From assembly GCF_013359685.1 (NCBI RefSeq), contig NZ_JABFMV010000001.1:314858-378857 (forward strand): DNA of 64,000 nt. Reading direction: 5' to 3'. The notes under the pieces are model-generated. The model ran no database searches and was not told where the DNA came from. It saw nothing but the letters and a program-made list of their open reading frames with translations. This DNA is from Leifsonia sp. C5G2. GTDB lineage: Bacteria; Actinomycetota; Actinomycetes; Actinomycetales; Microbacteriaceae. Shown piece after piece: positions 13,296 to 63,548 of this stretch (positions are counted from its first letter, which is position 1; each line of letters starts with the position of its first letter). The position numbers and the translations under genes are program-made.

Positions 13296-14314
13296 CAGCC
13301 GCCGAAGCCGTTCGCCGACGCCGCCTGCTCGTCGACCTTCGACGGAACGAACTCCAGGATCTCGTCGCCCTTCTTCAGCCCTGCGACGATCTGCACCTGC
13401 CGACCGTCGAAGATGCCCAGCTGCACCTTCACCGGCGTCGGGGCGCCGCCGTCCGCCGCGGGCCGGTACACCGTGCCCGCCGCGCCCGCTCCCTCGACGG
13501 CGGTCGCGGGCACGATGAGCGCGCCGTCTGCCGACCCGGCGCCGATGGTCAGCTTCGCCGCAAGGCCGGCGAAGACGGTCACCTCGGCGGGCACCGCGCA
13601 GCGCACCGTCGGTCCGCCGGACGACCCGGCGCCGGAGGACGACCCCGCGGAGGGCGCGGGACCCTGCGCCGGGCCGTCGGACCCGCCGCTCGCCCCGGCG
13701 AGCGGAGCGCTGACGGTGAGGCCGGTGCAGGTGAACGGCTCCGGTCCGCCGGCGATGGTCACCTTCGCCTCGGTCGGCTTGCTGAGCAGCCGGTACTGCT
13801 GCACGGCGGCGATCGACCCCGAGACGTTGAACGTCGGCGGGGCGACCTGGCCCAGCACGTCGCCCACGGAGACCTGCTGGCCGACGAGCACGTCGACCGC
13901 CGACAGCGTCCCGGCCGCGCCCGCGGCGATCGTCTCCGTGCTGTACCGGGGGCTGCCGTCTGCGGCGGGCGTCTCGAGTTGGTGCTTGACGACGGCCACG
14001 GGAGTCGCGGCGTCGACCGCGGCGCCCGGCGCGGCGGCGACCTTCGTCACCTCGCCCGCCGCCGTGGCGCGCACCGGCGCCGCCGCGTCCGCGAATACCG
14101 TCGCGTCCAGGGTGAGGTCGTTGCGGATCGAACCGCTCTGCACGGTCGTCGTCGGCTCGGCCACCACCCCCGTCGGACTGATCCCGTCCGCGCCGGCGGT
14201 GGCGCCGCTGAAGAACGCGAGCTTCACGAGCGCTGCCGCGATGGCGGCGAAGACGACGAGGCGGAGGACCGGGAACACCCAGCGGCGCATCACACCGGGG
14301 GACGACGAACTCAT
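13295..14314 (-). CDS. MacA-like periplasmic adaptor protein
   Basis: A 339-residue membrane-fusion type protein. A membrane anchor (about 10-33, WVFPVLRLVVFAAIAAALVKLAF) is followed by two lipoyl-like halves (AAGEVTKVAAAPGAAVD and AAGAAGTLSAVDVLVGQQVSVGD), a Gly/Ser/Pro-rich linker near 195-220, and a beta-barrel region with IVPATAVEGAG. It links transporter and envelope in the three-gene exporter. The ATG at 14314 is chosen; it lies 4 bases after the MFS stop. Confidence 0.85.
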   Translation of the reverse strand: MSSSSPGVMRRWVFPVLRLVVFAAIAAALVKLAFFSGATAGADGISPTGVVAEPTTTVQSGSIRNDLTLDATVFADAAAPVRATAAGEVTKVAAAPGAAVDAATPVAVVKHQLETPAADGSPRYSTETIAAGAAGTLSAVDVLVGQQVSVGDVLGQVAPPTFNVSGSIAAVQQYRLLSKPTEAKVTIAGGPEPFTCTGLTVSAPLAGASGGSDGPAQGPAPSAGSSSGAGSSGGPTVRCAVPAEVTVFAGLAAKLTIGAGSADGALIVPATAVEGAGAAGTVYRPAADGGAPTPVKVQLGIFDGRQVQIVAGLKKGDEILEFVPSKVDEQAASANGFGG

Positions 14315-14318
14315 CCCC

Positions 14319-15542
14319 TCAGTCTGGCCGAACCATGCGAAGACTCTCATCATCCTCCGGGATGACCGCACCACCCCGCCGGACCCCCAGCACGGACAGC
14401 ACGGCGCAGCCGGCGAGCAGGAGGGACACGACGAGGAGGACCGCCGCCGGGGCAGCCCCGACCGTGGCCGCGACCACGAACGAGATCGCAGAGCCGCCGG
14501 CCGCGCCGACGGCGACTAGAGCGCTCGAGATCCGCGCCGCGCCGCCGGGAGGGGTGACCGCGAGCGCGCAACCCATGAGGAGGGCGTAGCCGGGCGCGAC
14601 GCAGACGACGACCGCGGCGACCAGCAGCGCGGCACCGACGCCCCGTCCGACCGCCGCGCCGGCCGACCCCAGGACCGCGGCGACGAGGGCGGCGACCGGG
14701 AGATACACGGCCGGCCGTACGCCGCGGGCGAGGAGGGCCGTGCAGGCGAAGCGGCCGACGGCCATCAGCGTCCAGAACACGGTCGTCCCTGCCGCGGCCG
14801 CGGCCGGCGCGATATCGAGCAGCTGGGCGGGGAGGGTGCTCGACCATCCGGCGAGGATGGTCTCCGCGCCGACGAAGAGGAAGAGCGCGACGGCCAGGAG
14901 CGTCACGCGGCCGCGCACGCCCGGACCCGAGCCCGCACCCGCGCCCGAGCCGGCGCCGCGAGCGCGAGAGGGCGCTCCGTCGGGAGAGCCCGGCCAGCCC
15001 GTCCTGACGACGGTCCCCGTCACGGCGGCCCCCGCGGGTACCAGGGCGATCGCGAGGAGCGGCGCCCAGGGGGCACCCTGTCCCGCCACGATCAGGAGCG
15101 GCGCGCCGGCGGCCGCCACGGCCGAGGCGCCGTTGAGGGCGCTCAGCCGCGCGGGGGTGCCGTGCGCCGACCGCGCCCGGGTCAGCGCGGTCGCACTCGC
15201 CTCCACCAGCCCGAAGCCGATCCCCGTGGCGAGCGCGGCACCGAGGAAGACCGGGACCGACGGCGCACAGGCGACCGCGATCAGCCCTGCCGCTTCGAGA
15301 CCGCTCCCGACCGGCAGCATCGTCCGCGCGCTCCCCCGCCGCGCGACCGCGACCACGACGACCCCGGCGAACAGGCCGAGGAACAGCAGGGACACGCTCG
15401 GCAGCAGGTCGGCCGCGGCGACGCCCAACCGCGTGGCGGCGGCGGGGAGGGAGGCCGGGATCGCCGCGCTGACCGCGCCGAGGGAGACGAAGGCCAGCGT
15501 CAGCGCAGCATCCTGTCGCCGTTCAGGGCCGGGTCGCGTCAT
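14319..15542 (-). CDS. MFS transporter
   Basis: A 407-residue permease with about 12 hydrophobic segments. The central loop is a low-complexity Gly/Ala/Ser repeat (RGAGSGAGAGSGPG) between the two six-helix halves. Substrate unknown. Its start overlaps the end of the FAD oxidoreductase gene by 20 bases, so it is probably read from the same transcript. It may export or import a product of the muropeptide operon or belong functionally with the exporter downstream. Confidence 0.85.
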   Translation of the reverse strand: MTRPGPERRQDAALTLAFVSLGAVSAAIPASLPAAATRLGVAAADLLPSVSLLFLGLFAGVVVVAVARRGSARTMLPVGSGLEAAGLIAVACAPSVPVFLGAALATGIGFGLVEASATALTRARSAHGTPARLSALNGASAVAAAGAPLLIVAGQGAPWAPLLAIALVPAGAAVTGTVVRTGWPGSPDGAPSRARGAGSGAGAGSGPGVRGRVTLLAVALFLFVGAETILAGWSSTLPAQLLDIAPAAAAAGTTVFWTLMAVGRFACTALLARGVRPAVYLPVAALVAAVLGSAGAAVGRGVGAALLVAAVVVCVAPGYALLMGCALAVTPPGGAARISSALVAVGAAGGSAISFVVAATVGAAPAAVLLVVSLLLAGCAVLSVLGVRRGGAVIPEDDESLRMVRPD

Positions 15543-18312
15543 CGAGCAGCTCGAGGATGTGCCGGTACGGCCTGCCGGTCGCCCGCGTCATGCCGAGTTC
15601 GCAGGTCCGGTTGGCGGAGGCGTACGCCGCGAACTCCCGGCCGGCCAGCTCGGCCGCCTCCGCGCGCGTCGCCGACGCGGTGAGCTCGGGATGCAGCATG
15701 CCGCGGTCGCCGGCGAAGCCGCAGCATCCCCAGTCGACCGGGACCACCACGTCGTCGCTGATCGCCCGGGCGACGCGCACCATCGGGTCGGTGACGCCGA
15801 GGTGGGTCGACGAGCAGGTGGGATGCACGGCCACCGACTCGAGCGGCCGCCTCACGGTGAGCAGGGGCAGCACCTCACGCTCTACGAATTCGACCGCGTC
15901 GACGACGGTGAACCCGGCGCCGTCGGTCAGGTGGAGGAAGCCTTCGGTGCACGAGACGCCGTCCGAGATCACGGGCAGCTCTCCGGCGCGCGTGGCCTCC
16001 CGGAGCACGGGCAGCGCCGTGTCGGCCATCGTCCGGTGCCCCCGCGGGTTGCCCTTCGACGTCCACGGGGTTCCGCAGCACAAGGACTCCACCCCCTCCG
16101 GGATGGCGACCGCGACTCGCGCGCGCTCGCACAGGGCGAGGAACGCCTCCCGCACGCCCTGCGACGACTCGGCGGGCCCGAACAGGGAGCCGATGCACGA
16201 CGGCACGTACACAGCGACCGCGTCGGCCGCCTCCCGGGGCCGTCTCCGGACGCCGCCGCGCGGGAGTCCGCGGTCGTAGCGCGGGACGTCGTCCGAGCCG
16301 ATCACGATGCGCCCGAGGTCGGTGACGGCGGTCACCAGCGGCGCGGGCAGCAGCTTCGCGGTCGTCATCGCGACAGCGCCGACCCGCGTGACCGCGTCCC
16401 AGCGGCCGGCGGCGACGTTCCAGCCCGCGGCGACGAGCGAGTCGTCGTGCTCCGCCCGCAGCCGCTTCACGAGCTTCCCGGTGTCGATGCGCACCGGGCA
16501 GGCGGTCTGGCACATGCCGTCGGCGGCGCAGGTGTCCAGGCCGTCGTAGCGGTAGTCGCGGTCGAGTTCCTCGACCAGCGCGAGGTCGCCCGCCAGCCGG
16601 GCGCGCTCCCGTTCGCGGCGGAGCACGATCCGCTGACGCGGCGTGACCGTGAGGTCCTTGCTCGGGCAGACGGGCTCGCAGTAGCCGCACTCGACGCAGC
16701 GGTCGACCTCCGCCTCGACGGTCGGAGTGAGCTTGAGGTGCTGCAGGGGACCGTCCGGGTCCTCGTTCAGGAGCACGCCCGGGTTGAGCAGGCCGCCCGG
16801 ATCGGCGAGCTGCTTCACGCGCAGCATCACGCCGTAGAGAGCGTCGCCGAACTGGCGGCGCACATACGGCGCCATGATCCGGCCGGTCCCGTGCTCGGCC
16901 TTGAGCGTGCCGCCGTTGCGGAGCACCAGCTCCACCATCTCCTCGGTGAACTCGGCGTAGCGCCGCGTCGAGCCGGGGTCGTCGAAGTGCTCGGTGAGCA
17001 TGAAGTGGATGTTGCCGTCCTTTGCGTGCCCGAAGATCACGCTGTCCTCGTAGCCGTGGCGGTCGAACAGCTCGATCAGCCCCTCGCAGGTCGCCCGGAG
17101 GGTCGCGACCGGCACGGCGATGTCCTCGAGCATGGCTGTCGTCCCGGACGGGCGGTTGCCCGCGACGGTCGCGTAGAGGTCCTTCCGGATGTGCCAGAGC
17201 GCGTTCCTCCTGGCCGGGTCCCGGGTGAGGGCCGCCGGCTGGGCGAGCGGGAGGGTGGGGGCCAGCTCGCTCCAGGCGGCGAGGCGGGCCGCGAGCGCGT
17301 CCGCGTCGGGCTCCTGGTACTCGACGAGCAGTGCGGCGTGCCGGTCGACATCCAGGCCGAGGAGCTCGTCGTCGGCGCCGGGGTCGCGCTGCGCGACCCG
17401 CAGCGAGGTGGCGTCGAGCAGTTCGACGGTGGCGAGGCCGGAGGCGACGAGCGCGGGCAGAGCGCCCGTCGCGTCCGCGAGCGTGCGGAAGTACAGCATC
17501 CCGGTGGCCGTGTGGGTCCGCACCGGCAGGGTGGCGAAGGTCGCCTCGGCGACGAAGGCCAGCGTCCCCTCGCTGCCGACGACCAGGTGCACCAGGATGT
17601 CGACCGGCGCGTCGTGGTCGAGGAAGGCGTTGAGGCCGTAGCCCATCGTGTTCTTGATGGCGTACTGGCGGCGGATCGTCGCGACCATTCCGGCATCCGC
17701 ACGGAGGTGCTCGCGCAGCTCGGCGAGTCCCGTCCACAGTTCCGGGGAGGCGGTGCGCAGGCGCAGGTCGGCGTCGGGCGCGGCGGTGTCGAGCACGGTC
17801 CCGTCCGCGAGCACGAGCACCGCCGACACGATCGTGTTGTAGGTGTTGTGCTCGGTGCCGCACGCCATCCCGCTGGAGTTGTTCGCGACGACCCCGCCGA
17901 TCGTGCACGCCGCCTCGCTCGCGGGGTCCGGGCCGAGCTTGCGGCCGTGGCGGGCGAGTCGCGCGTTCACCTGGCGGACGGTCGCGCCAGGCTGCACGCG
18001 CACGCGCTCCCCGCCGTCGAGCACCTCGATGGCGCGGAAGTTCGCGCGCGTGTCCAGCAGGAGGCCGGTGGTCGACGCCTGCCCGGACAGGCTGGTGCCG
18101 CCGGAACGGAATGCGACCCGCGCCCCCGACCCGGAGGCGACGCCGAGCAGCTGCGCGAGGTGAGCGGTGTCGCGCACCGTCACCACGCTCAGCGGTGTCA
18201 TCAGGTAGTGGGACGCGTCGTGCGCCATCGCCAGCCGGTCGATCGCGCGGTCGCGCACCGAGCCGGGCGCGAGGCTCTCGAGCCGTTCGGCCAGTTCCGC
18301 GGGGGCTGCCAT
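15523..18312 (-). CDS. FAD/Fe-S oxidoreductase, D-lactate dehydrogenase type
   Basis: A 929-residue fusion. An N-terminal FAD-binding domain of the GlcD/vanillyl-oxidase type (about 35-265: RSGGTSLSGQ, CTIGGVVANNSSGM, GYGLNAFLD) is followed by a C-terminal FAD-oxidase domain with AEHGTGRIM. Next is a 4Fe-4S ferredoxin pair (CVECGYCEPVCP and CAADGMCQTACP) and a CCG-rich region (SLCCGTPWTSKG, CSSTHLG, GCCGFAGDRG). This build matches the Fe-S D-lactate dehydrogenases feeding electrons to the respiratory chain. It lies 13 bases after the muropeptide transporter ATPase. MurQ releases D-lactate, so D-lactate is the likely substrate; glycolate or another 2-hydroxy acid cannot be excluded. Confidence 0.9.
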   Translation of the reverse strand: MAAPAELAERLESLAPGSVRDRAIDRLAMAHDASHYLMTPLSVVTVRDTAHLAQLLGVASGSGARVAFRSGGTSLSGQASTTGLLLDTRANFRAIEVLDGGERVRVQPGATVRQVNARLARHGRKLGPDPASEAACTIGGVVANNSSGMACGTEHNTYNTIVSAVLVLADGTVLDTAAPDADLRLRTASPELWTGLAELREHLRADAGMVATIRRQYAIKNTMGYGLNAFLDHDAPVDILVHLVVGSEGTLAFVAEATFATLPVRTHTATGMLYFRTLADATGALPALVASGLATVELLDATSLRVAQRDPGADDELLGLDVDRHAALLVEYQEPDADALAARLAAWSELAPTLPLAQPAALTRDPARRNALWHIRKDLYATVAGNRPSGTTAMLEDIAVPVATLRATCEGLIELFDRHGYEDSVIFGHAKDGNIHFMLTEHFDDPGSTRRYAEFTEEMVELVLRNGGTLKAEHGTGRIMAPYVRRQFGDALYGVMLRVKQLADPGGLLNPGVLLNEDPDGPLQHLKLTPTVEAEVDRCVECGYCEPVCPSKDLTVTPRQRIVLRRERERARLAGDLALVEELDRDYRYDGLDTCAADGMCQTACPVRIDTGKLVKRLRAEHDDSLVAAGWNVAAGRWDAVTRVGAVAMTTAKLLPAPLVTAVTDLGRIVIGSDDVPRYDRGLPRGGVRRRPREAADAVAVYVPSCIGSLFGPAESSQGVREAFLALCERARVAVAIPEGVESLCCGTPWTSKGNPRGHRTMADTALPVLREATRAGELPVISDGVSCTEGFLHLTDGAGFTVVDAVEFVEREVLPLLTVRRPLESVAVHPTCSSTHLGVTDPMVRVARAISDDVVVPVDWGCCGFAGDRGMLHPELTASATRAEAAELAGREFAAYASANRTCELGMTRATGRPYRHILELLDDATRP

Positions 18313-33347: not shown

Positions 33348-36037
33348 TCTCCTCCGATCCTCAGCACGGCCGCGGCCGACCGGCGGCGGGCGCCCGCGAG
33401 CGCAACAGCGGTCGCGACAGCGGCCACCAGGGCGAAGCCGGCGAGCACGGCTCCGACGAGCGCGGGATCCTGCACGATCGCGGGCTGCACCGGGCTCCCG
33501 GTGAACCCGCGCAGGTCGAGCGGGGTCAGCACGATGGCAGGCAGGGCCAGCCCGACCACGGCGCCCGCGGCGAGGCCGAACACCAGGACCGGGCCGAGCT
33601 CCCAGGCCAGCACGCCCGCGGTCTGCCGGGAGCTGTACCCGATGGTGCGCAGCGTGGCCACGAGCCGGATGCGCGCGGCGGTGTTCAGGACCAGCGTCAG
33701 CAGCAGCGCGGCGATGCACAGCAGCAGCGTCAGCGCGATCGACAGCGCGGCGATCGCCTCGGAGCCCGCGACGAGCGGCGACGCGCCCAGGGCGGCGCGC
33801 TCGGCGACCGCGTCCCCCACGACCGCGCCGCGACCGCCGATGCGCTGCAGCTCGGCGTGCACCGTCGCGGCGTCCGCCCCGGGGGCGAGCTTCACCAGGA
33901 CGGTCTGCGGTCGGCCGCCGATGCCGCTCGACGCCGGGAGGGACGTCTTGTCGATGAACACCCACTCCGCGTCGCGGACATACACGCCGGGGACGAAGTC
34001 GATCTCCTTCACGCCCAGGTGCACGTTCGTGCCGCTGGTCTCGACGAGGGCGCTGGTGATCGGGATGCGGCTCGTCGAGCCGCCGAGAGCGGCGCCGGTG
34101 CGGCCGGGGAGCACGCCGGTGAGCGCGGTGGAGAGGCGGGCGGCGCGCGGCAGATCGGCTTGCACGGCGTCGAGGGCCCGAGGATCGACGAGGTAGCCGG
34201 AGACGGACGAGGAGTCGCCGGCCGCACTGAGCCGCAGGCCTCCCGCCCAGTCGACGGTCGCGGTGTGCTGGACTCCGGGGATGCGGGCCACCGCATCCAC
34301 TTGGGCCCCCGACAGGGTGGACGCAGCGGTGAGCGACAGGTCGGAGCCCACCCGGATCCGGGCGCCCTCTGCGAGCCCCGCACTCGTCGTCGCCAGCATG
34401 CTCACCGAGAACAGCGCGATGCCCACGCCGGCGACCAGCGTGAAGACGGGCCAGAGCAGCCCCGACCGGGCGTGCCGCGCCGACGACGCACCGAGGAACG
34501 CGACCGCGCCCCGGCCCCGGCGCAGCGCGCCCGCGACCCACCCGACCGGGTACCCCGCCAGCCGGACCACCAGGATGCACGCCGCGAGCGCCACCAGCAC
34601 GGGGGTGAGCGCGGTCAGCGGGTCGACCTGCATGCCGGCGCCGGAGGCGTCCAGCCCGCGACGGGCGACGAGGGCGACCCCGGCGACCGCCAGCGCCAGC
34701 ACGACCACCTCGGCGACCCAGGCGAAACGGTTCCTGCGCCGGGTCGAGGGCGCAGGCTCCAGGGAACCCGCGGCCAGCAGGAGCACGACCGGCGGGAGCA
34801 GGACGCACAGCACGGCGAGCCCGACCGGCAGCGCGAGCGGTACCGCCCCCGGTGTGAGCAGGAGCGCGGCCGCCAGGCCGGCCGCCGCCGCAGGGAGCGA
34901 CGCCAGCAGGCCGTGCGCGGCGAGCTCCGTGCGCAGCCGTGCCGGGGAGGCGCCGCGCGCCGCCATCAGTGCGAGGGCGGGCCTCCGGCGATCGACGACG
35001 AGGCGCCCGGCCTGAGCGAGCACCGCGAGGGCGACGACCAGCGGCCCGCTGAGGAGGATGGCGAACAGGGTCTGCGCGGGCTGGGCCCGGGCCGTGAAGT
35101 CGTCCAGCGGCTGCTGCAGCGCGGTGGCGAAGGACAGCGGCACGGACGCGCCTCCCACGGACGCGGTGCGCGGGGACGCGAGGAACGCTCCGAGCGCGCT
35201 GCGGACCTGCGGCAGCTCCTCCGCGGTGAACCGGCCGGGGACGACGGGGAACCACACCGAAGCGATGGTCGCGTCGAAGCGCGGGGCGAGGGCGGGCCAT
35301 GCCTGCGGAGCCACCCAGGCGACGCCGCCGTAGTCCTTGCCGGAGTCGCCGCCGTCGACGAAGTGACCGAGGGCCCGCGTGACGTCGAGGTCCCAGAAGT
35401 CGGCCGAGCGGTCGAGCGGACGGATCGTCCCGACCAGCTTCAGGGGCACCGTCGCCGCCGGCATCGGGGCCGCGGTGCGCACGTCGCCGACCCGCCAGCC
35501 GAGCAGCGACGCCGCCGTCGCGGTGAGCACCACCGGGATGGGGCCCGCGTCGTCGGCCGTCGGCGCCGTCGGCCACTCGCCCGACACCAGCCGCGCGTTC
35601 CGTCGCAGGTCCGGGTAGACCTCCACCGTGACGGAGTACCTGCTGTTAGGAGCCGCCCCCGCGGGCGAGTCGGTCGGCTCGGCGAGGCTGCGGGCGGCGA
35701 TGTCGCCCGGTGACGTGACGGCCCGGAGCGGCGGCCGCATGGCGTCGCGCACGGCCGTGGCCGTGGCGGGCAGATCGTGCCACAGCTGCGCCGGGTCGAC
35801 CTCGGGGCCGCTCGTGAAGGTGCCGGTGCGGATGCCGGCGACGATGTCGCGGCCGCCGCCCCCCGCCTCCACGAGGCCGTGGCGCAGCTCGCCGCCCAGG
35901 ACGATGCTCGTCACCCGGGGCCACGAGGCGAGCGCCAGCGTCGTGACCAGTGCGACGACGGCGAGGAGGGCGAGCCCTCCCCCGTACGCCCGCACGGACC
36001 GGAGGAAGAGCCCGGCGTCGGTCGTTCGCCCGCTCAC
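33344..36037 (-). CDS. Large FtsX-family ABC permease
   Basis: An 897-residue permease. It has an N-terminal helix (LALLAVVALVTTLALASWP), a large external domain (about 45-285), a four-helix cluster (about 305-445), a second external domain (about 520-735) and three C-terminal helices with the FtsX motif RIRLVATLRTIGYSSRQT. The GTG start overlaps the stop of the other permease (TCAC, 36034-36037). Together they likely form a heterodimeric exporter or lipoprotein/envelope-stress complex. Substrate unknown. Confidence 0.88.
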   Translation of the reverse strand: MSGRTTDAGLFLRSVRAYGGGLALLAVVALVTTLALASWPRVTSIVLGGELRHGLVEAGGGGRDIVAGIRTGTFTSGPEVDPAQLWHDLPATATAVRDAMRPPLRAVTSPGDIAARSLAEPTDSPAGAAPNSRYSVTVEVYPDLRRNARLVSGEWPTAPTADDAGPIPVVLTATAASLLGWRVGDVRTAAPMPAATVPLKLVGTIRPLDRSADFWDLDVTRALGHFVDGGDSGKDYGGVAWVAPQAWPALAPRFDATIASVWFPVVPGRFTAEELPQVRSALGAFLASPRTASVGGASVPLSFATALQQPLDDFTARAQPAQTLFAILLSGPLVVALAVLAQAGRLVVDRRRPALALMAARGASPARLRTELAAHGLLASLPAAAAGLAAALLLTPGAVPLALPVGLAVLCVLLPPVVLLLAAGSLEPAPSTRRRNRFAWVAEVVVLALAVAGVALVARRGLDASGAGMQVDPLTALTPVLVALAACILVVRLAGYPVGWVAGALRRGRGAVAFLGASSARHARSGLLWPVFTLVAGVGIALFSVSMLATTSAGLAEGARIRVGSDLSLTAASTLSGAQVDAVARIPGVQHTATVDWAGGLRLSAAGDSSSVSGYLVDPRALDAVQADLPRAARLSTALTGVLPGRTGAALGGSTSRIPITSALVETSGTNVHLGVKEIDFVPGVYVRDAEWVFIDKTSLPASSGIGGRPQTVLVKLAPGADAATVHAELQRIGGRGAVVGDAVAERAALGASPLVAGSEAIAALSIALTLLLCIAALLLTLVLNTAARIRLVATLRTIGYSSRQTAGVLAWELGPVLVFGLAAGAVVGLALPAIVLTPLDLRGFTGSPVQPAIVQDPALVGAVLAGFALVAAVATAVALAGARRRSAAAVLRIGGE

Positions 36038-39000
36038 CTCGTCTCCTCCCGGTAGGCGGTGTCCGCGGCCTGGCGGCGGACGGCCCTCCCGTAGCCCCAC
36101 ACCGCGAGCGCGAGCGCGGCGGCCAGGGCACCGAGGCCGACAGCCAGCCCGGGCACGTCGACCCGGCCCTGCACGGAGAGAGTGGAGGGCGCGGTCACCA
36201 CCGAGAGCCGGGCGAGGGTGTTGGCCACCAGCAGCACGACGGCGACTCCCCCGGCCAGGCCGAAGACGGCGGAGGCGACGGCCACGCCGATCACCTCGAG
36301 CCGCCGCGACCACGCCTGCTGCGCGCCGGAGAGGCCGACGGCGCGGAGCACCACGACCTCGCCGCGGCGGCGGCGGAGCGAGGAGGAGATCGCGGCGGCG
36401 ACGGCCGCGACGGCGAGCAGCGCGCATCCCGCGGCACCGAGCCAGGTGCTGAGCACGGCGCCCGAGAGGAAGCGCGAGACGAACGTCCCGTCGGCGGTGG
36501 TGACGACCGCGTCGGGTCCGACCATCGCTGCGACGCGGGAGCGCAGGGCGTCCGCGTCGGCGGCGGTCGCCCACACCGACGACGCCCGGGTCGCCGCGGG
36601 CGCGGTGCGCAGCAGCTGCGCGGTCACGGCGGAGTAGTCGGCGAGCACGGCCCGCTCGGAGGAGGTGCCGGGCACGGCCGCGACGATCCGCGCCACCGTT
36701 CCGGTGAGAGTGCCGATCGGACCCCGCACGTCGATCCGCTGGCCGACCTCCAGCGCATCGTCGTCGGCCAGGGCCTGCGTGACGACAAGACGGAGAGGAA
36801 CGGGCTCGGGCCCGGGCACGAACCGCGCCGACGCGGTCCGGTCCAGGGTGGCCGTGGCGGCGCGACCATCGGACGACGCCACGAAGTCGGAGCTCGACGC
36901 GAACGCGCCGGGGGCGAGCGACCACGCGTCCGCCGCCCGTGGCAGCCCCGAGAGCGCGACCTCCACGTTCGCGGCGCCCGCCTCCGACTGCGGCTCTGCG
37001 GTGACGTCGACGGCCACCAGCCGTCGCGGTCCTCCCGTGGCGAGCGGGATGCGGACGACTCCCCCGGCGTCCGGGCGCGCCGCGACGGGCACGGCTTCGC
37101 CCTGGGCGGTGGCCAGCCACGCCGTCACAGCGGTCGGCGTCGCCGTGCCGCTGCCCGCGGACGCGGCCACGCGGAAGGTCAGCGCACTGTCGGCCTCCGG
37201 GAGTTCGGCCCCCGGGATGCCGCCGCGCGGAGGGAGGGCCGCGGCGACGGCCGGCGCGTCGAACAGGTAGGAGCCGACCGGCACGAGAGCCGGCAGCCGC
37301 GCGGCGTCGGCGACGACCACGGCGACGTCCGTCTCGCCGACCGTTCCGTCGTCCACGATCGCCGGAGACGCCGTCGCGCCTCCGTGCGAGAGCTCCGGGG
37401 CGGGCGAGAGCGCGGCGGCGGACCGGGCCGCCCCGCCCGTTCCGAGGTCCGCCCGCACGGCGGCCCCGGTGGTGAGGAGACCGGAGTCGTGGAGGAAGCC
37501 CGAGAAGGTGCCCGCGTACCCCGCGGCGAAGCCGAAGGAGCCCACCGCGAGCACGATCAGGGCGACCGGTCCGGAGAAGAGGCTTATCCCGCGGCCCACC
37601 TGCCGGGCGGGGAGGACACCCTCCACGCCCCGGCCGCGGCCCGCGAGCCGCTCCACCGCCGCTGCCGCGGGACCGAACAGCGACAGCCCGAGCAGCGCGA
37701 TCGCGCACAGCACGGCAGCGGGGGCCAGCACCCCCACCGGGTCGACTCCGCCGACGCCGGCGGAGGAGCTGAACACGAGGAAACGCCATAAGGTGAGCGC
37801 CGCCGCGACGAGGGCCAGCACCGCGAGCCCGGCCGAGACGGCACTCCGGGCGCGCCCGGCCTCCACTGCACCCGGCGCGTCCGTGAGGGAGCGCGCCGAC
37901 AGCACCGCGGTGAGGGTGGCGGTGGCGACGGCCGCCGCGAGGGCCGCGAGCGGAGGGAGCACGACATCCATCACACCGGAAGCGCCGGCCGCGGGTCCCC
38001 CGGTCAGCGGGACGAGAACCGCCTGCGCGGCGAGGGCGCCGAGCGCGACGGCGAACACTGCCGCCGCCGCGGACTCCGCAGCCGCCGCACCCGCCAGCGC
38101 GGGCAGCGTCACCCCGCGCGATCGCAGCAGCCGGGTCTCCGGCCGGCGCGCGTCCGACAGGAGACGGCCGAGCAGTGCCAGCGCGATCACGGCGCACACG
38201 GCCAGCACCGCGAGCGGGATCGGGATGACCGCCTGCAGCGCCACCACCGAGCGCTGCATCGCCACGACGGTCGCGAGCCCCTGACCGGCCGACGAGAACG
38301 GGCTGTCCGCGGCCGTCGAGTCCGCGCTGAGCGCGACACGGATCCCGTCGAAGCCCTCGCGCAGGCTGGGCAGCCGATCCGCGGTGACGCGACCGGCATC
38401 CGGTGTCACCACCCACTGCACGGCGGTGCCGTCGCTCGCGGCGTCCGCGACGCCGGCCGAGGCGATGACGCGGCCGTCGGTGCCGCCCGCTCCGTCGCGG
38501 AGGCCCAGCCACGCGGGAGCGGCAGGGTCGGCGGGCCGCCACACCGCCGTCACGGTCACGGGGACCGCCCGATCGGAACCGGCGAAGGCGAGGCGCCCGC
38601 CGACGGCCAGGTGGTGGGCCCGCGCGAACGACTCGTCCACGGCCGCTTCGGTCGCCGCCGAGGGCCACCGGCCGGAGACCAGCCGGATGCGGTCGCGGAC
38701 GTCGCGGGAGGCCACGATCACCGCCGCGGTCCCCCCTCCCTCCACCGGGGCGGACGGGACGAACGCCGTCTCCGCCGTCCGAAGCGGCACTCCGCGGAAC
38801 TCCGACCGCAGGACGGACCGCACCGCGTCCTCCTGCGCCGCCGCATCCGTCGACCGCGACGTCTGCAGGGCGACGGACGTCGCCGCGGCGGGCTCGTGCG
38901 TCAGGGTCGCGCGCACAGCCGCGTCGGGCGACCGCAGCGCCAGGCCGGTCATCACCGAGGCGAGGAAGGCGACCACGGCCACCACGAGGGCCGTCGAGAT

Positions 39001-58784: not shown

Positions 58785-60743
58785 ATGAAGGTCACAGCCA
58801 AAGCCGGCGGGTCGCGCCCACCGTCGACGGGCGTCCCCCGGAACCCGGCGGGCGTCGGCCGCACCGCGCTCTACGCGACCGCGCTGGCGGCACTCGGCGT
58901 CGTCTTCGGCGACATCGGCACCAGCCCGCTCTACGCGCTCAAGACCGTGTTCCTGCTCGACGGCGGCGCCGTGCGACCCAACCAGGACGACGTGTACGGG
59001 GTGGTGTCGCTGATGTTCTGGAGCATCACGATCATCGTCTCGATCAAGTATCTGGGCATCCTGATGCGCGCCGACAACGACGGCGAGGGCGGCGTCATGG
59101 CGCTGGCGGCGCTCGCCCAGCGTCTGTACGCCCACAAGGCGGGCAAGGCCGGGGTGCTGCTCGTGATCGGCATCGTCGGCGTCTCGCTGTTCTACGGCGA
59201 CTCGATCATCACGCCCGCGATCAGCGTGCTCTCCGCCGTCGAGGGACTCCACGTCACGACCCCGGCGATCTCGCACCTGGTGCTCCCGATCGCGGCCGTC
59301 ATCCTGATCGCGCTGTTCGCGCTGCAGCGGTTCGGGACGGGCCGGGTCGGCGTCCTGTTCGGTCCGGTCATGGTGCTGTGGTTCGTCGTGCTGGCCGTGG
59401 CCGGACTCGGGATGGTGATCCAGTACCCGTCGGTGCTGGTCGGGCTCTCGCCCACGTTCGCCGTGACGTTCATCGTCGCGCATCCCGCCATCTCGTTCAT
59501 CGCGCTCGGCGCGGTGGTACTCGTCATCACCGGTGCGGAGGCGCTCTACGCCGACATGGGGCACTTCGGCCGCTCGCCGATCCGCCGGGCGTGGTTCCTC
59601 CTGGTCTTCCCGGCCCTGACCCTCAACTACCTCGGCCAGGCCGCGCTGGTGCTGAACCATCCGGCGGCGAAGGCGAACCCGTTCTTCCTGCTGTTCCCCG
59701 ACTGGTCGCGCCTGCCGGTCGTGTTCCTGGCGACGGCGGCGACCGTGATCGCCAGCCAGGCCGTGATCTCGGGGGCGTTCTCCCTGTCGCGGCAGGCCGT
59801 GCAGCTCGGGCTGCTCCCGCCGCTGACGGTGCGGCAGACCTCGGAGCGCGAGGGCGGCCAGATCTACATGCCGGCCATCAACATGCTGCTCTTCCTCGGA
59901 GTGATGGCGGTCACGCTCACCTTCGGCTCGTCCGACCGGCTCTCCACGGCGTACGGCATCTCCGTCACCGGGGCTCTGGTCGTCGACACCGTCCTGCTGT
60001 TGCTCGTGTCCCGGCGGCTGTGGAACTGGGCGCCGTGGAAGATCGTGCTCGCGGGCCTGGTCTTCGGCGGGCTCGAGCTGGCCTTCCTGGCCGGCAACCT
60101 GTCCAAGATCATCAACGGCGGATGGGTGCCGCTGCTGATCGCGGGGGTCGTCATCCTCATCATGACCACCTGGCGCCGCGGCCGCCGCCTGGTGCAGGAG
60201 GACAGGAAGCGCAAGGAGGGCTCGCTGACGGAGTTCATCGAGCACGTCCAGGAGGAGCGGCTCCCGCGCGTGCCGGGCGTCGCCGTCTTCCCCCACCCGA
60301 ACAAGGACAGCACCCCGCTCGCGCTGCGGGCGAACGTCAAACACAACCACGTGCTGCACGAGCACGTCATCATCGTGTCGGTCGGGTTCGCGCAGGTGCC
60401 GCACGTGCCGCCGGCGGAGGCGTTCGAGTACGACGACCTGGGGTACGCGGATGACGGCATCGAGTACCTCGGCATCCGGTTCGGGTTCTCCGACGACCCC
60501 GACATCCCGAAGGCGCTGCGGGCGGCCTGCCGCATCGGGGCACTCCCGATCCGGACGGAGGACCTCACGCACGCGTCGTACTTCATCTCGCGCGGCGCCA
60601 TCCGCACGACGCGCACCAAGAGCATGGTGCGGTGGCGGAGGTCGCTGTTCGTCGCGCTCGCGCACAACGCCGCGGACCCGGCCGCGCGCTTCGACCTGCC
60701 GCCGCTCCGCACGGTCACGATGGGCAGCGACGTCGAGATCTGA
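58785..60743 (+). CDS. kup: Low-affinity potassium transporter Kup
   Basis: A 652-residue KUP/HAK/KT transporter moving K+ with H+. The start GVVFGDIGTSPLYALKTVF is the family signature, followed by 12 membrane segments to about residue 465 and a C-terminal cytoplasmic domain. Conserved GEGGVMALAALAQR and GADMGHF-like GAEALYADMGHFG are present. Divergent from the FUSC gene. Confidence 0.95.
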   Translation: MKVTAKAGGSRPPSTGVPRNPAGVGRTALYATALAALGVVFGDIGTSPLYALKTVFLLDGGAVRPNQDDVYGVVSLMFWSITIIVSIKYLGILMRADNDGEGGVMALAALAQRLYAHKAGKAGVLLVIGIVGVSLFYGDSIITPAISVLSAVEGLHVTTPAISHLVLPIAAVILIALFALQRFGTGRVGVLFGPVMVLWFVVLAVAGLGMVIQYPSVLVGLSPTFAVTFIVAHPAISFIALGAVVLVITGAEALYADMGHFGRSPIRRAWFLLVFPALTLNYLGQAALVLNHPAAKANPFFLLFPDWSRLPVVFLATAATVIASQAVISGAFSLSRQAVQLGLLPPLTVRQTSEREGGQIYMPAINMLLFLGVMAVTLTFGSSDRLSTAYGISVTGALVVDTVLLLLVSRRLWNWAPWKIVLAGLVFGGLELAFLAGNLSKIINGGWVPLLIAGVVILIMTTWRRGRRLVQEDRKRKEGSLTEFIEHVQEERLPRVPGVAVFPHPNKDSTPLALRANVKHNHVLHEHVIIVSVGFAQVPHVPPAEAFEYDDLGYADDGIEYLGIRFGFSDDPDIPKALRAACRIGALPIRTEDLTHASYFISRGAIRTTRTKSMVRWRRSLFVALAHNAADPAARFDLPPLRTVTMGSDVEI

Positions 60744-60778
60744 CGCTCAGGCGCCGGACGGCGCGAGCAGCTGGTCCG

Positions 60779-61255
60779 TCAGCATGCGCCTCGTCTTCTT
60801 CGTGGACGGCCGACGTCGTTCGTCCGGCGGGGCTTCTCTGCTCCAGGAGGCCGAAGCAGCAGTGTTGCGAAGGGCAGGACGAGTCCGAGTGCTAGGTCGG
60901 CCCACACCAGCCATGTTCCCCAGAAGACGGACCACGACTGGAGGTGCGTCCATCCGACCCAGAAGAGCCCAGCGCAAAGGCCCGCCACGAGCCAATTAAC
61001 CGTGATTCCGTGGAGACCGAGCAGACGGTTGAGAAGGTACGCGATGCCGCCGAGCGCAAAGCCGCCAATCGCTCCACTGAGGAAGAACATGACGACGAAG
61101 ACCGGGAAGTAGCCCCAGTGTTGCGAGGATATGGTGCGCGCCCACAGATCGAATTGAACGAAGACCACGACGACAACCGCCACCAACCACGGTCCGTGGC
61201 GCCTTGGCTTCGCCAATTTGCTTCCGCTGCCTGTCTGGTGGAGGTCGCGATTCAC
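60779..61255 (-). CDS. Four-helix membrane protein, candidate immunity protein of the LXG toxin
   Basis: A 158-residue protein with four membrane segments (about 23-40, 48-75, 84-106, 112-133) and a basic C-terminus (RRPRRRRG). Its ATG overlaps the toxin stop (TCAT, 61252-61255), the normal place for an immunity gene. A membrane immunity protein implies that the toxin acts at or outside the membrane. No known domain recognised. The DNA has lower GC than its surroundings. Confidence 0.78.
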   Translation of the reverse strand: MNRDLHQTGSGSKLAKPRRHGPWLVAVVVVVFVQFDLWARTISSQHWGYFPVFVVMFFLSGAIGGFALGGIAYLLNRLLGLHGITVNWLVAGLCAGLFWVGWTHLQSWSVFWGTWLVWADLALGLVLPFATLLLRPPGAEKPRRTNDVGRPRRRRGAC

Positions 61256-62487
61256 TTTTGCGGGGGCTGTGCGGGAAGCGGCGGGTGTCCCATCGCTGCT
61301 TGAAGGTTAGCCGCGTAACCCGTCCAGAGCAGTCCTGTGAAGAGTGAATACGCGTCGTCCCAGCCTTCTGGTGTCGATTTCTCGAAGCCCGCTTTGACGT
61401 CGAGAAAGTTGTGGCCATTGGCTCCTGCTCGCACGGTGAACTCAACGGTGCCCGGGTACTCCGGGTGGCCGGGGAGAGCCTCGATGGTGTAGCTGGTCTC
61501 CGTGAGCTTGGTGACTTTGATGTCCCCGGAGGTCAGACCTTCGTTTTCCAGGTCCGCCAATCTGGTGTGGATCACTTGGCCGACGCGAGTCAACGTGACA
61601 TCTTGAGCGGAGCCGTCACGCCTCCACGCTGGCGGAAAGACCTGGCCGAAATGAGCCTTGATATAGGCGAAGATTTCTTCCGGAGTCTTGTCGTTCATGT
61701 ATGGCCCGAGGTCGTACTGATGTAAGTAGCCAAGCGGGTATCCGAAGTTGCCTTCTTGAATCGCTCCTGATTGAGCTGAAACGTCGACGCCAGCGTACTC
61801 GTGGGTGGAAATCTTCGCGGCGAATAGCCCCCGAATGACAGCGAGGTCCACGCCGTTCGCGTAATAACTGCCGTCGGCCTCTACCGCGACCTTGTCCAAC
61901 TCGACGGCCGCCTGCGTGGCGAGGCGCATCACGTTCAGGCTGTCGGAGAAGTACTTCGCCACGTCGGCGACGAACCACTCCAACTTGTCGATCTTCTCCT
62001 TGAGGTCTTCAACCTCGTTCTCGACCTGATCTCTGAGCCGCTGGAGTGCCTGGTTCTGGTGGGCGAGCTTCTCCACGTCGCCGGTGAACACCGCTTGGAG
62101 TTGTGTGAAGAAGTCGTCGTTTCGTTCGATCTGCTCCTCGATCAGGCGAAGCCGCTCCTTGGCCTCCTGCAACGCCTTCGTGAGGTCGTCGTGGTCGAGG
62201 TTCCCGTATTTGGCGAGCACGGAGTGCGCGTGCTCGTAGGAGGCGAGCTCGGCCTGGACATCGCCCATGGCTTCGCGGAGCTTCGCGATGCCCGGCAGGA
62301 TCAGCTCCGCGAACAGGCCGCGCCCAGCAGCGAACGCCGCCCCCTGAAGGACGCCCGCGTCGAGTTGGGCGACCAGATGCTTGGACCCAGAATCCAGGCG
62401 GCTGACGATCACGTCCGCGGTCGTGATGTTGCTGCGCATCGCGCTGATGAGGTTGCTCGAATCAGCGGCGCTGAACCTTACGCCCAT
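61252..62487 (-). CDS. LXG-type T7SS polymorphic toxin
   Basis: A 411-residue protein. Residues 1 to about 190 are helical and coiled-coil, starting MGVRFSAADSSNLISAM, then LDAGVLQGAAFAAGRGLFAELILPGIAKL, the L-x-G-type region of LXG domains, and QNQALQRLRDQVENEVEDLKEKID. A distinct C-terminal domain (about 200-411) has HEYAGVDVSAQSGAIQEG, TPEEIFAYIKAHFGQVF, EYPGTVEFTVRAG and a hydrophobic end LLWTGYAANLQAAMG; I do not recognise its activity. LXG proteins are exported by type VIIb-like systems to poison rivals. It overlaps both neighbours in the operon. Confidence 0.82.
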   Translation of the reverse strand: MGVRFSAADSSNLISAMRSNITTADVIVSRLDSGSKHLVAQLDAGVLQGAAFAAGRGLFAELILPGIAKLREAMGDVQAELASYEHAHSVLAKYGNLDHDDLTKALQEAKERLRLIEEQIERNDDFFTQLQAVFTGDVEKLAHQNQALQRLRDQVENEVEDLKEKIDKLEWFVADVAKYFSDSLNVMRLATQAAVELDKVAVEADGSYYANGVDLAVIRGLFAAKISTHEYAGVDVSAQSGAIQEGNFGYPLGYLHQYDLGPYMNDKTPEEIFAYIKAHFGQVFPPAWRRDGSAQDVTLTRVGQVIHTRLADLENEGLTSGDIKVTKLTETSYTIEALPGHPEYPGTVEFTVRAGANGHNFLDVKAGFEKSTPEGWDDAYSLFTGLLWTGYAANLQAAMGHPPLPAQPPQK

Positions 62488-62840
62488 GGCAGCGCGTTCC
62501 TCTCTTTCGCGAGCTTCTCCAGTTCATCGTCGAACGACTGCCGGACCCGCGAACGCGTCTGCTCGAGCTCCTCCGACGTTTCTTCCACGTACCGGTCGAT
62601 CCTCAGCAGTAGGTCGTTACGCACCTCCAGTTCGTGCTGCACGCCCCTGTCACCGGCCTCTATCCGTTCTCTGAGGGAGGACTCTCGGTCCCGGCCCACC
62701 GCATGGAACTGTTCACGGAACTGCTCCAACGAACCCTCGTAACGCTGCCGAGCCTCGGAGAACTCGTCCTCCTGCCGTTCCACCCGCTGGATCTGCCCGT
62801 TCAGTTCGGCACGTTCCGTCGCGCTCCGATCCGCACTCAC
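62478..62840 (-). CDS. Small coiled-coil LXG-associated protein (Lap-like)
   Basis: A 120-residue charged helical protein (ATERAELNGQIQRVERQEDEF, YVEETSEELEQTRSRVRQSF), almost entirely coiled-coil, in the position of DUF3958-type LXG partners. In Streptococcus and Enterococcus such partners bind the LXG helices and carry the export signal. It overlaps the toxin gene by 10 bases and its ATG overlaps the preceding stop. Confidence 0.75.
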   Translation of the reverse strand: MSADRSATERAELNGQIQRVERQEDEFSEARQRYEGSLEQFREQFHAVGRDRESSLRERIEAGDRGVQHELEVRNDLLLRIDRYVEETSEELEQTRSRVRQSFDDELEKLAKERNALPWA

Positions 62841-63121
62841 TGAGCATTCACCCAGCGTTCCGCATCCGCGACATCACGCTTTTCGATGCTGCTCGCAAGC
62901 TCCGGGAACTTGTTAGCCTGGCCCAAGACCGCAGCGCAGAACTGGCTGATCGTCTGGAACATCTCGTTCGTGACATCCCGGCCCGCATCCATCCCAGGAA
63001 TGCCGGCGGCGAAACCGAATGTCACTTGCTGGTCCGAATACTCAGAGGTTTCGATACCGACCAGCTCATTCACCGCGGCATCGGCGCCGACCGTGCTCGA
63101 AACGATCCTTCCAGCTGACAT
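62837..63121 (-). CDS. Small LXG-associated protein (TIGR04197/DUF3130-like)
   Basis: A 94-residue helical protein with TNEMFQTISQFCAAVLGQANKFPELASSIEKRD, similar in size and layout to TIGR04197-type T7SS partners that precede LXG toxins. One cysteine, no signal peptide. The ATG has AAGGGG upstream and is the first gene of the four-gene operon; a GAAC-N4-GTTC palindrome lies 72 bases before it. Confidence 0.75.
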   Translation of the reverse strand: MSAGRIVSSTVGADAAVNELVGIETSEYSDQQVTFGFAAGIPGMDAGRDVTNEMFQTISQFCAAVLGQANKFPELASSIEKRDVADAERWVNAQ

Positions 63122-63193
63122 CAGTTCCCCTTCATCGCTACATCCGACACGAGCAACATGCGCGTGCCCTTGGGCTGAAACATATCAACTTTA

Positions 63194-63207
63194 AGAACAC
63201 GTGTTCT
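63194..63207 (-). promoter_or_regulatory. LexA-box-like palindrome upstream of the LXG operon
   Basis: AGAACACGTGTTCT is a perfect 14-base palindrome whose core GAAC-ACGT-GTTC fits the actinobacterial SOS box core (GAAC-N4-GTTC). Outer bases do not match the full TCGAAC...GTTCGA form. It is in the right place to repress the toxin operon. Confidence 0.5.
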
Positions 63208-63269
63208 CGATACGGAATGATTGCGGCCATTACGACGACGGACGCAACGTTGAGCGCATTGGTGCGGCG

Positions 63270-63548
63270 ATGCCGATGGGATGCCGTGCAGCCCAGCCCG
63301 ACATGGTTATACGAGCGGTCGGGCTGACGCGCACCATCTGGGTCAGGGCGAAGGGCATGGCGACCAACACCGGTCCGTTCCTCGGGCCGCCGAGCGGGCT
63401 TCCCGTGCGGTTCACCGTGCTCGACATCGCGCGCATCGTGGACGGGCGGATCGTGGAGCACTGGGGCGTACCAGACCGGTTCGAGATCCTGGTGCGGACG
63501 GGGAGGCTGCCCGTCGCGGCCGCGTCGGCCGGGGCCAGTCAGCCGTAG
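63270..63548 (+). pseudogene. C-terminal remnant of a SnoaL-like/ester-cyclase gene
   Basis: The frame reads TNTGPFLGPPSGLPVRFTV, LDIARIVDGRIVEHWGVPDRFEIL, which is the last two thirds of a SnoaL-like polyketide-cyclase fold. The first strands and helices (about 60 residues) are missing. The preceding sequence is the non-homologous, lower-GC edge of the LXG island, so the 5' part was probably lost when the island arrived. An intact short protein is less likely. Confidence 0.65.

Follow-up and report, generated by a model that had tools for sequence, protein, structure and literature searches.

A 64,000-nucleotide stretch of the Leifsonia sp. C5G2 genome (contig NZ_JABFMV010000001.1, positions 314,858 to 378,857; hereafter the window) carries a four-gene cassette that, from its homology and gene setting, is very probably an LXG effector cassette of a type VIIb secretion system (T7SSb). 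The observations behind this reading are of gene order, homology, co-occurrence across genomes, trees and predicted folds. The cassette would be an orphan effector locus of a T7SSb that is encoded elsewhere in the same genome, and we consider the account as a whole, an orphan effector that acts in the envelope and has its origin on the streptococcal side, to be probable. The four genes lie on the minus strand and are transcribed in the order 94, 120, 411 and 158 amino acids; neighbours overlap by 4, 10 and 4 bases, and all four reading frames are intact. The original prediction for this DNA had described these four overlapping genes as an LXG toxin cassette. It was right, and the finding has grown: the genome also holds what is likely the machine that exports the effector, the system appears to have crossed between phyla, and the warhead is predicted to have a helix-grip fold. 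The features are:

62837-63121, minus: Lap1-like partner, 94 amino acids; position-matched Streptococcus relatives are 52-55% identical (blastp)
62478-62840, minus: Lap2-like partner, 120 amino acids; position-matched Streptococcus relatives are 31-37% identical
61252-62487, minus: LXG effector, 411 amino acids, by homology to LXG proteins
61780-62487, minus: LXG domain, effector residues 1-236; the LxG motif is L47-Q48-G49
61255-61779, minus: C-terminal (warhead) domain, residues 237-411; predicted helix-grip START/Bet v 1 fold
60779-61255, minus: putative immunity protein, 158 amino acids, membrane protein by hydropathy; again beside the same C-terminal domain in locus L001 (83%)
63122-63229, minus: presumed operon promoter region, shared by nucleotide identity with the cassette of locus L146

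Streptococcal relatives of the cassette

A search with the 411-amino-acid protein found 12 loci. Nine of them belong to Streptococcus sanguinis, S. cristatus and S. gordonii, and the remaining three to two Leifsonia genomes. Relatives of the first three genes keep their order in all nine Streptococcus loci, so the cassette is not a chance arrangement, and the claim that it copies the layout of Firmicutes type VIIb effector loci is borne out. The LXG part is 43-48% identical to Streptococcus in eight rows and 41% in L012. One streptococcal relative that is 44% identical (L006) exceeds the cut-off of the Pfam LXG family PF04740 (28.6 against 26.5), and through homology to this protein the N-terminus of the effector is assigned to the LXG domain, as had been proposed. 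It is predicted to be a helical domain of about 200 residues, with helices at residues 7-43, 50-92, 99-130 and 138-176, in which L47 and G49 are invariant in 10 of 10 aligned rows. Alignments A1 and A4 leave out L003 and L012, where the LXG sequence runs over more than one frame, and A4 holds the readable part of L011. Three Enterococcus plasmid records are 29% identical over residues 5-214; phages gave no match, and viral contigs held no relative of the C-terminal domain and none of the LXG profile.

The two small proteins had been claimed as Lap-like partners, and for this claim place and homology agree with the Streptococcus loci, although neither protein reaches the cut-offs of TIGR04197, DUF3130 or DUF3958, the profiles that had been proposed for the check. 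The FxxxD export motif of Lap1 was not found near the C-terminus of the 94-amino-acid protein. The likely equivalent site reads [I/L/V]xxxD ('IEKRD' in the window) and is present in all 11 rows, and in 18 of 18 rows of another alignment; because of this site we call the protein Lap1-like and not a DUF3130 protein. Its relatives also score below the Lap1 (DUF3130/TIGR04197) cut-offs (15.4 against 25; 19.5, 17.9 and 15.6 against 26). The 120-amino-acid protein is called Lap2-like from its place and helical make-up.

The window cassette and that of Leifsonia sp. CL147 (L146) are 83.8% identical in nucleotides over 61785-63229, a similarity that ends at about effector residue 234, and the kup and MOSC flanks are not common to the two. 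This points to an exchangeable warhead and to cassettes at differing sites; here too, as in LXG effectors, a conserved N-terminus goes with exchangeable C-terminal domains. Among the 12 loci, the C-terminal part (91%) and the 158-amino-acid protein (83%) recur only in L001 of Leifsonia sp. Leaf336, which like CL147 belongs to the genus of the window; loci L002 and L003 lie in genomes G655 and G656, whose EssC coordinates equal those of genus members G125 and G259. L001 and L162 are the same place. Leaf336 carries several broken or cut-off copies of the window type (L003/L160, L161, L001/L162), and its EssC is of T7SSb type and over cut-off. Given these copies and the distance of the window locus from the machinery, the cassette could be read as a remnant, decayed or without toxicity, in which an LXG carrier bears a ligand-binding domain that does no harm and is kept by chance or for another use. 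The intact frames of the window and the joint recurrence of the C-terminal domain and the membrane gene in L001 speak against a remnant, which we therefore hold to be unlikely.

Type VIIb machinery, its distribution and its ancestry

No secretion genes were seen near the cassette, as the original prediction had said of the window; a T7SSb locus is found on another contig (C7). It encodes EsxA, a 188-amino-acid EssA-like protein, EsaB/YukD, an EsaA-like protein on the opposite strand, EssB, EssC and a DUF4176 protein. EssC scored 1369.2 bits against TIGR03928 (cut-off 778.4) and is of the Firmicutes type. EssB (253.5 bits against TIGR03926, cut-off 229.75), EsxA (69.1 against TIGR03930, cut-off 44.85) and EsaB/YukD (36.4 against PF08817, cut-off 27; 15.9 against 100 for the narrower NF052661) also exceed their families' cut-offs, as does the DUF4176 protein (26.3 bits, cut-off 25), whose family has been linked to TelA export (PMC10765036). 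EsaA proteins of genus relatives scored 123.0 (L130) and 121.6 (L137) against a cut-off of 122, and an EsaA-like gene was found in 9 of the 14 Microbacteriaceae EssC stretches that were read, either in reverse orientation or at a greater distance.

From homology to the Lap system we infer a complex and its secretion: the Lap1-like and Lap2-like proteins would bind the LXG domain and present the export motif to EssC, which would export the effector. Two further EssC-profile matches in the genome are below cut-off (504.8 and 112.1 bits). Contig C34 (15603-18740; L015, L019) encodes a second FtsK/EccC-like ATPase, near genes that by eye look ribosomal. The sub-cut-off matches leave some room for export of the effector by another ATPase, such as this EccC/FtsK-like protein, and not by the T7SSb. 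The C34 protein, however, shares 27% identity with EssC and falls among T7SSa-like rows, where its branch is long, while all 12 genomes of the genus with LXG have a T7SSb EssC and an LXG gene lies behind EssC in nine loci, and we regard export by another ATPase as highly improbable.

EssC was counted as T7SSb only above the 778-bit TIGR03928 cut-off, which excluded 20 genomes of the window's class (602-631 bits) and four of the class of S. cristatus (643-668 bits). Of the 28 genomes of the genus, 14 have an EssC over cut-off. In the family five of 249 genomes passed, four from the window's genus and one from elsewhere, and in the class one of 394, which is the window's own. In the class of S. 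cristatus 44 of 200 genomes passed, S. cristatus among them, and among 14 control genomes Bacillus subtilis alone passed. The LXG profile matched 12 of the 28 genus members; in the window's class it matched one genome of 394 (again the window's own), and in that of S. cristatus five of 348, with S. cristatus among the five. The 12 LXG genomes all lie within the 14 EssC genomes (one-sided Fisher test, 3.0e-6, kinship ignored); the EssC-type ATPase that had been expected in carriers of the cassette is thus present, in its Firmicutes type, in the genome of the window and in every genus member with an LXG match. Genes for EssC, DUF4176, Lap1, Lap2 and LXG are directly consecutive in 9 of 15 Microbacteriaceae EssC loci. 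Two of the six loci without that order reach the contig end soon after EssC; the window genome's own EssC locus has DUF4176 and no LXG gene.

Twenty-three other Leifsonia LXG proteins were listed. Eleven of the 15 that were scanned with Pfam have a C-terminal domain over cut-off (seven Abhydrolase_8, three Ntox44, one calpain-like). Among the listed proteins, eight have by eye a glycine-rich C-terminus (L131, L132, L137-L141, L154). These glycine-rich C-termini are reminiscent, by eye, of TelE; the label glycine zipper was likewise given by eye, with one sub-threshold profile match.

The window genome's EssC shares 50% identity with the S. gordonii protein, 42% with its S. cristatus counterpart (L086) and 28-31% with T7SSa-like proteins of the window's class. 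In a 53-row EssC tree the 14 Leifsonia rows and one row from another genus form a single clade inside Firmicutes, sister with support 100 to S. gordonii (L087) and one more genome (G721, L116), which represent a streptococcal EssC subtype other than the one in S. cristatus L086; rows from the class of S. cristatus are called Firmicutes on class alone. The 53-row tree omits 15 of the 20 T7SSa-like rows, the partial L091 and L092, and also L088 and L089, whose genomes are already represented by L022 and L030. The same placement came from 24 rows under a mixture model, and there a single Firmicutes clade was rejected (approximately unbiased (AU) test, p 0.0001). In the LXG tree (33 rows) the window type and Streptococcus form one group (100/100), separate from 18 other Leifsonia LXG proteins; having no outgroup, this tree shows grouping, not direction.

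Transfer of the machinery and the LXG lineage from the Firmicutes side is the simplest reading of these trees and we find it highly probable, with the streptococcal part of the T7SSb tree as the source. The Leifsonia clade branches deeply, and the T7SSb genes of contig C7 have a third-position GC of 0.82-0.91, near that of the host, as they might if the T7SSb were old in Actinobacteria and had been lost in most lines, with no transfer between phyla. The scarcity of EssC over cut-off in the class (1 of 394) and the family (5 of 249), its nesting in Firmicutes and the AU rejection of a single Firmicutes clade make such an old T7SSb very unlikely.

The C-terminal domain and the putative immunity protein

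The original prediction had left the C-terminal domain unrecognised. It still matches no family over threshold, but a fold can now be predicted, at moderate confidence: a START/Bet v 1 helix-grip that matches solved members over most of the domain. DUF1990 (PF09348) was the sole sequence match, at 12.7 bits against 23 (E 0.13), short of membership. A copy 35% identical stands on a WXG/PPE-like carrier in a relative from the same bacterial family (L164), followed by a gene with a lipoprotein-like start, and one warhead thus appears to be common to two kinds of carrier, LXG and WXG/PPE-like. By eye, the neighbours of L164 and L166 (G453, same family) are small helical, lipoprotein-like and WXG100-like proteins. 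Another candidate relative (L165, E 0.0056) was dropped as a chance match, its frame resembling by eye a glycerol kinase.

As to toxicity, the C-terminal domain would act in the envelope of a competitor, possibly by binding or extracting a membrane lipid or a lipid-linked precursor. We think it likely that the target is in the envelope and suggest only tentatively that lipid binding is the toxic act. A helix-grip enzyme on an envelope or cytoplasmic substrate is a somewhat doubtful alternative: the START/Bet v 1 superfamily includes enzymes, with norcoclaurine synthase (8ho2) among the structure matches, and the three known C-terminal sequences share H28, Q29, D31 and a GHPEYPG block (numbering of their alignment), but no catalytic family was matched, and because two of the three sequences are 91% identical the conserved residues cannot be separated from close kinship. 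In the literature covered, to which subscription papers and preprints largely do not belong, lipid capture by a START-like warhead was not found for polymorphic toxins. The consulted part of a 2012 toxin catalogue (PMC3482391) contains neither START, SRPBCC nor DUF1990, and that of PMC12419801 has START only within a reference title.

The membrane protein from the overlapping last gene would protect the producer, and is a putative immunity protein. It has three transmembrane helices at a stricter hydropathy threshold and four at a looser one (residues 24-42, 50-68, 83-101 and 116-134). In other Leifsonia loci, the gene behind a glycine-rich effector encodes a protein with 6-7 predicted helices in seven of eight cases, the eighth being at a contig end, and in all five hydrolase loci examined (of seven) the gene behind the effector has one hydrophobic segment. 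Topology is mixed in the three Ntox44 loci, and the overall pattern is not clean.

The cassette proper spans 60779-63121, and upstream DNA common with the related cassette reaches 63229. The span first given for it (60743-63548) contains the cassette and also takes in the last stop base of a neighbour and a gene fragment. The neighbour is a kup-type potassium transporter gene (58785-60743; PF02705, PF22776). On the other flank, the SnoaL-like fragment (63201-63548) covers only positions 71-123 of the 126 of its profile, which would fit an insertion of the cassette into this gene or next to it. The fragment lacks about the first 70 profile positions and starts within the DNA common to the CL147 cassette, which suggests an insertion scar. 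The four cassette genes have a GC content of 59-63% (third-position GC 0.71-0.78) against 68-71% (0.84-0.97) in three measured neighbours. The window lies within a 579-kb contig of a genome of 4.09 Mb. Elsewhere in it, positions 14001-16000 and 34001-38000 show a strong AT skew (0.23-0.30) in very GC-rich DNA.

Assessment and relation to known systems

Several results weigh against a T7SSb effector cassette with a streptococcal history and a toxic warhead. The window LXG protein scores 15.4 bits against PF04740 (cut-off 26.5), PF04740 searched alone has no match at E <= 0.001 in the window's own genome, and none of the 15 scanned Leifsonia LXG proteins exceeds its cut-off. The window's 94-amino-acid protein has no DUF3130 or TIGR04197 match, and DUF3958 is absent among the nine families listed at E <= 10 for the 120-amino-acid protein. 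With Pfam, NCBIfam and PHROGs the four window proteins gave sub-threshold matches only, many of them to coiled coils, and in the PDB the effector and alignments A4 and A3 matched, by sequence and weakly, other proteins of helical or coiled-coil type. In structure comparison TelA-LXG ties with unrelated helical bundles; Foldseek found nothing at E <= 0.001 for the full-length effector model and ranked TelA-LXG sixth, below F-BAR domains. The warhead model has a mean pLDDT (predicted local distance difference test) of 62 and was built from three sequences, and a helix-grip fold by itself shows neither toxicity nor ligand. As the machinery is on another contig, its pairing with the cassette is indirect. 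The EsaA-like protein is below cut-off (117.3 against 122 bits), and the EssA-like protein matches no family and is named from place, topology and a weak hhalign match (E 0.013, probability 3.3). One of the 14 EssC genomes (G178) has EssC split over two frames and two have no LXG match. Both EssC trees are quick searches in which long branches and uneven composition were flagged.

The closest known systems are the Lap1-Lap2-LXG cassettes of Streptococcus, namely TelC and TelD of S. intermedius (PMC9600955) and the S. sanguinis, S. cristatus and S. gordonii loci found here. The LxG motif and the C-terminal exchange are alike throughout, and the gene order is that of the loci found here. A hydrophobic residue followed by xxxD near the end is common to the Lap1 proteins, with Ile in place of Phe in the window. 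Unlike these cassettes, that of the window has an actinobacterial host, proteins below the LXG, DUF3130, DUF3958 and TIGR04197 cut-offs and an effector with a predicted helix-grip C-terminal domain. The Leifsonia machinery resembles the T7SSb of Bacillota in that EssC, EssB, EsaB and EsxA exceed their cut-offs, in the order EsxA, EssA-like, EsaB, EssB, EssC, and in that 9 of 15 Microbacteriaceae loci have effector genes after EssC; it differs in its host, its weakly similar EssA-like protein, and its EsaA-like gene, which is placed on the other strand or at a distance and scores at or just under cut-off. The T7SSd of Actinomycetota (PMC11217815) is likewise an EssC-type ATPase system, but as described in the consulted part of that paper it has a kinase component and lacks EsaB. 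Because the Leifsonia system has EsaB/YukD, and EssB as well, it is not a T7SSd. The predicted warhead fold is that of the START/Bet v 1/SRPBCC superfamily, here fused behind LXG or, in L164, a WXG/PPE-like carrier. Judged from its genes, the system would work like, and by ancestry belongs to, the LXG-T7SSb kind.

In the parts of the literature consulted, Garrett et al. (2024) assign T7SSb to Bacillota and T7SSd to Actinomycetota (PMC11217815), the survey of LXG proteins by Whitney et al. (2017) is across Firmicutes genomes (PMC5555719), and the split between T7SSa in Actinobacteria and T7SSb in Bacillota is used as a phylum rule (PMC9600955, PMC10765036, PMC11217815). The main text of PMC11217815, as far as consulted, has no word beginning with Leifsonia or Microbacteri. 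Within the scope given above, no report of LXG was found for Leifsonia, and no title on T7SSb for Microbacteriaceae or Leifsonia.

At its widest, our account would have a complete T7SSb and LXG-Lap families cross from streptococcus-like Firmicutes and diversify in Leifsonia, with a START-like warhead that kills by capturing a membrane lipid or a lipid-linked cell-wall precursor, a combination we regard as speculative and rather unlikely to hold in every part. The phylum rule would be broken by one actinobacterial genus in which half of the sampled genomes carry a T7SSb with linked LXG effectors. Such a T7SSb would model the system under an actinobacterial envelope and let the portability of machinery parts between phyla be probed, and a helix-grip warhead behind both LXG and WXG/PPE-like carriers would count as a new toxin domain, one whose lipid target could be tested.

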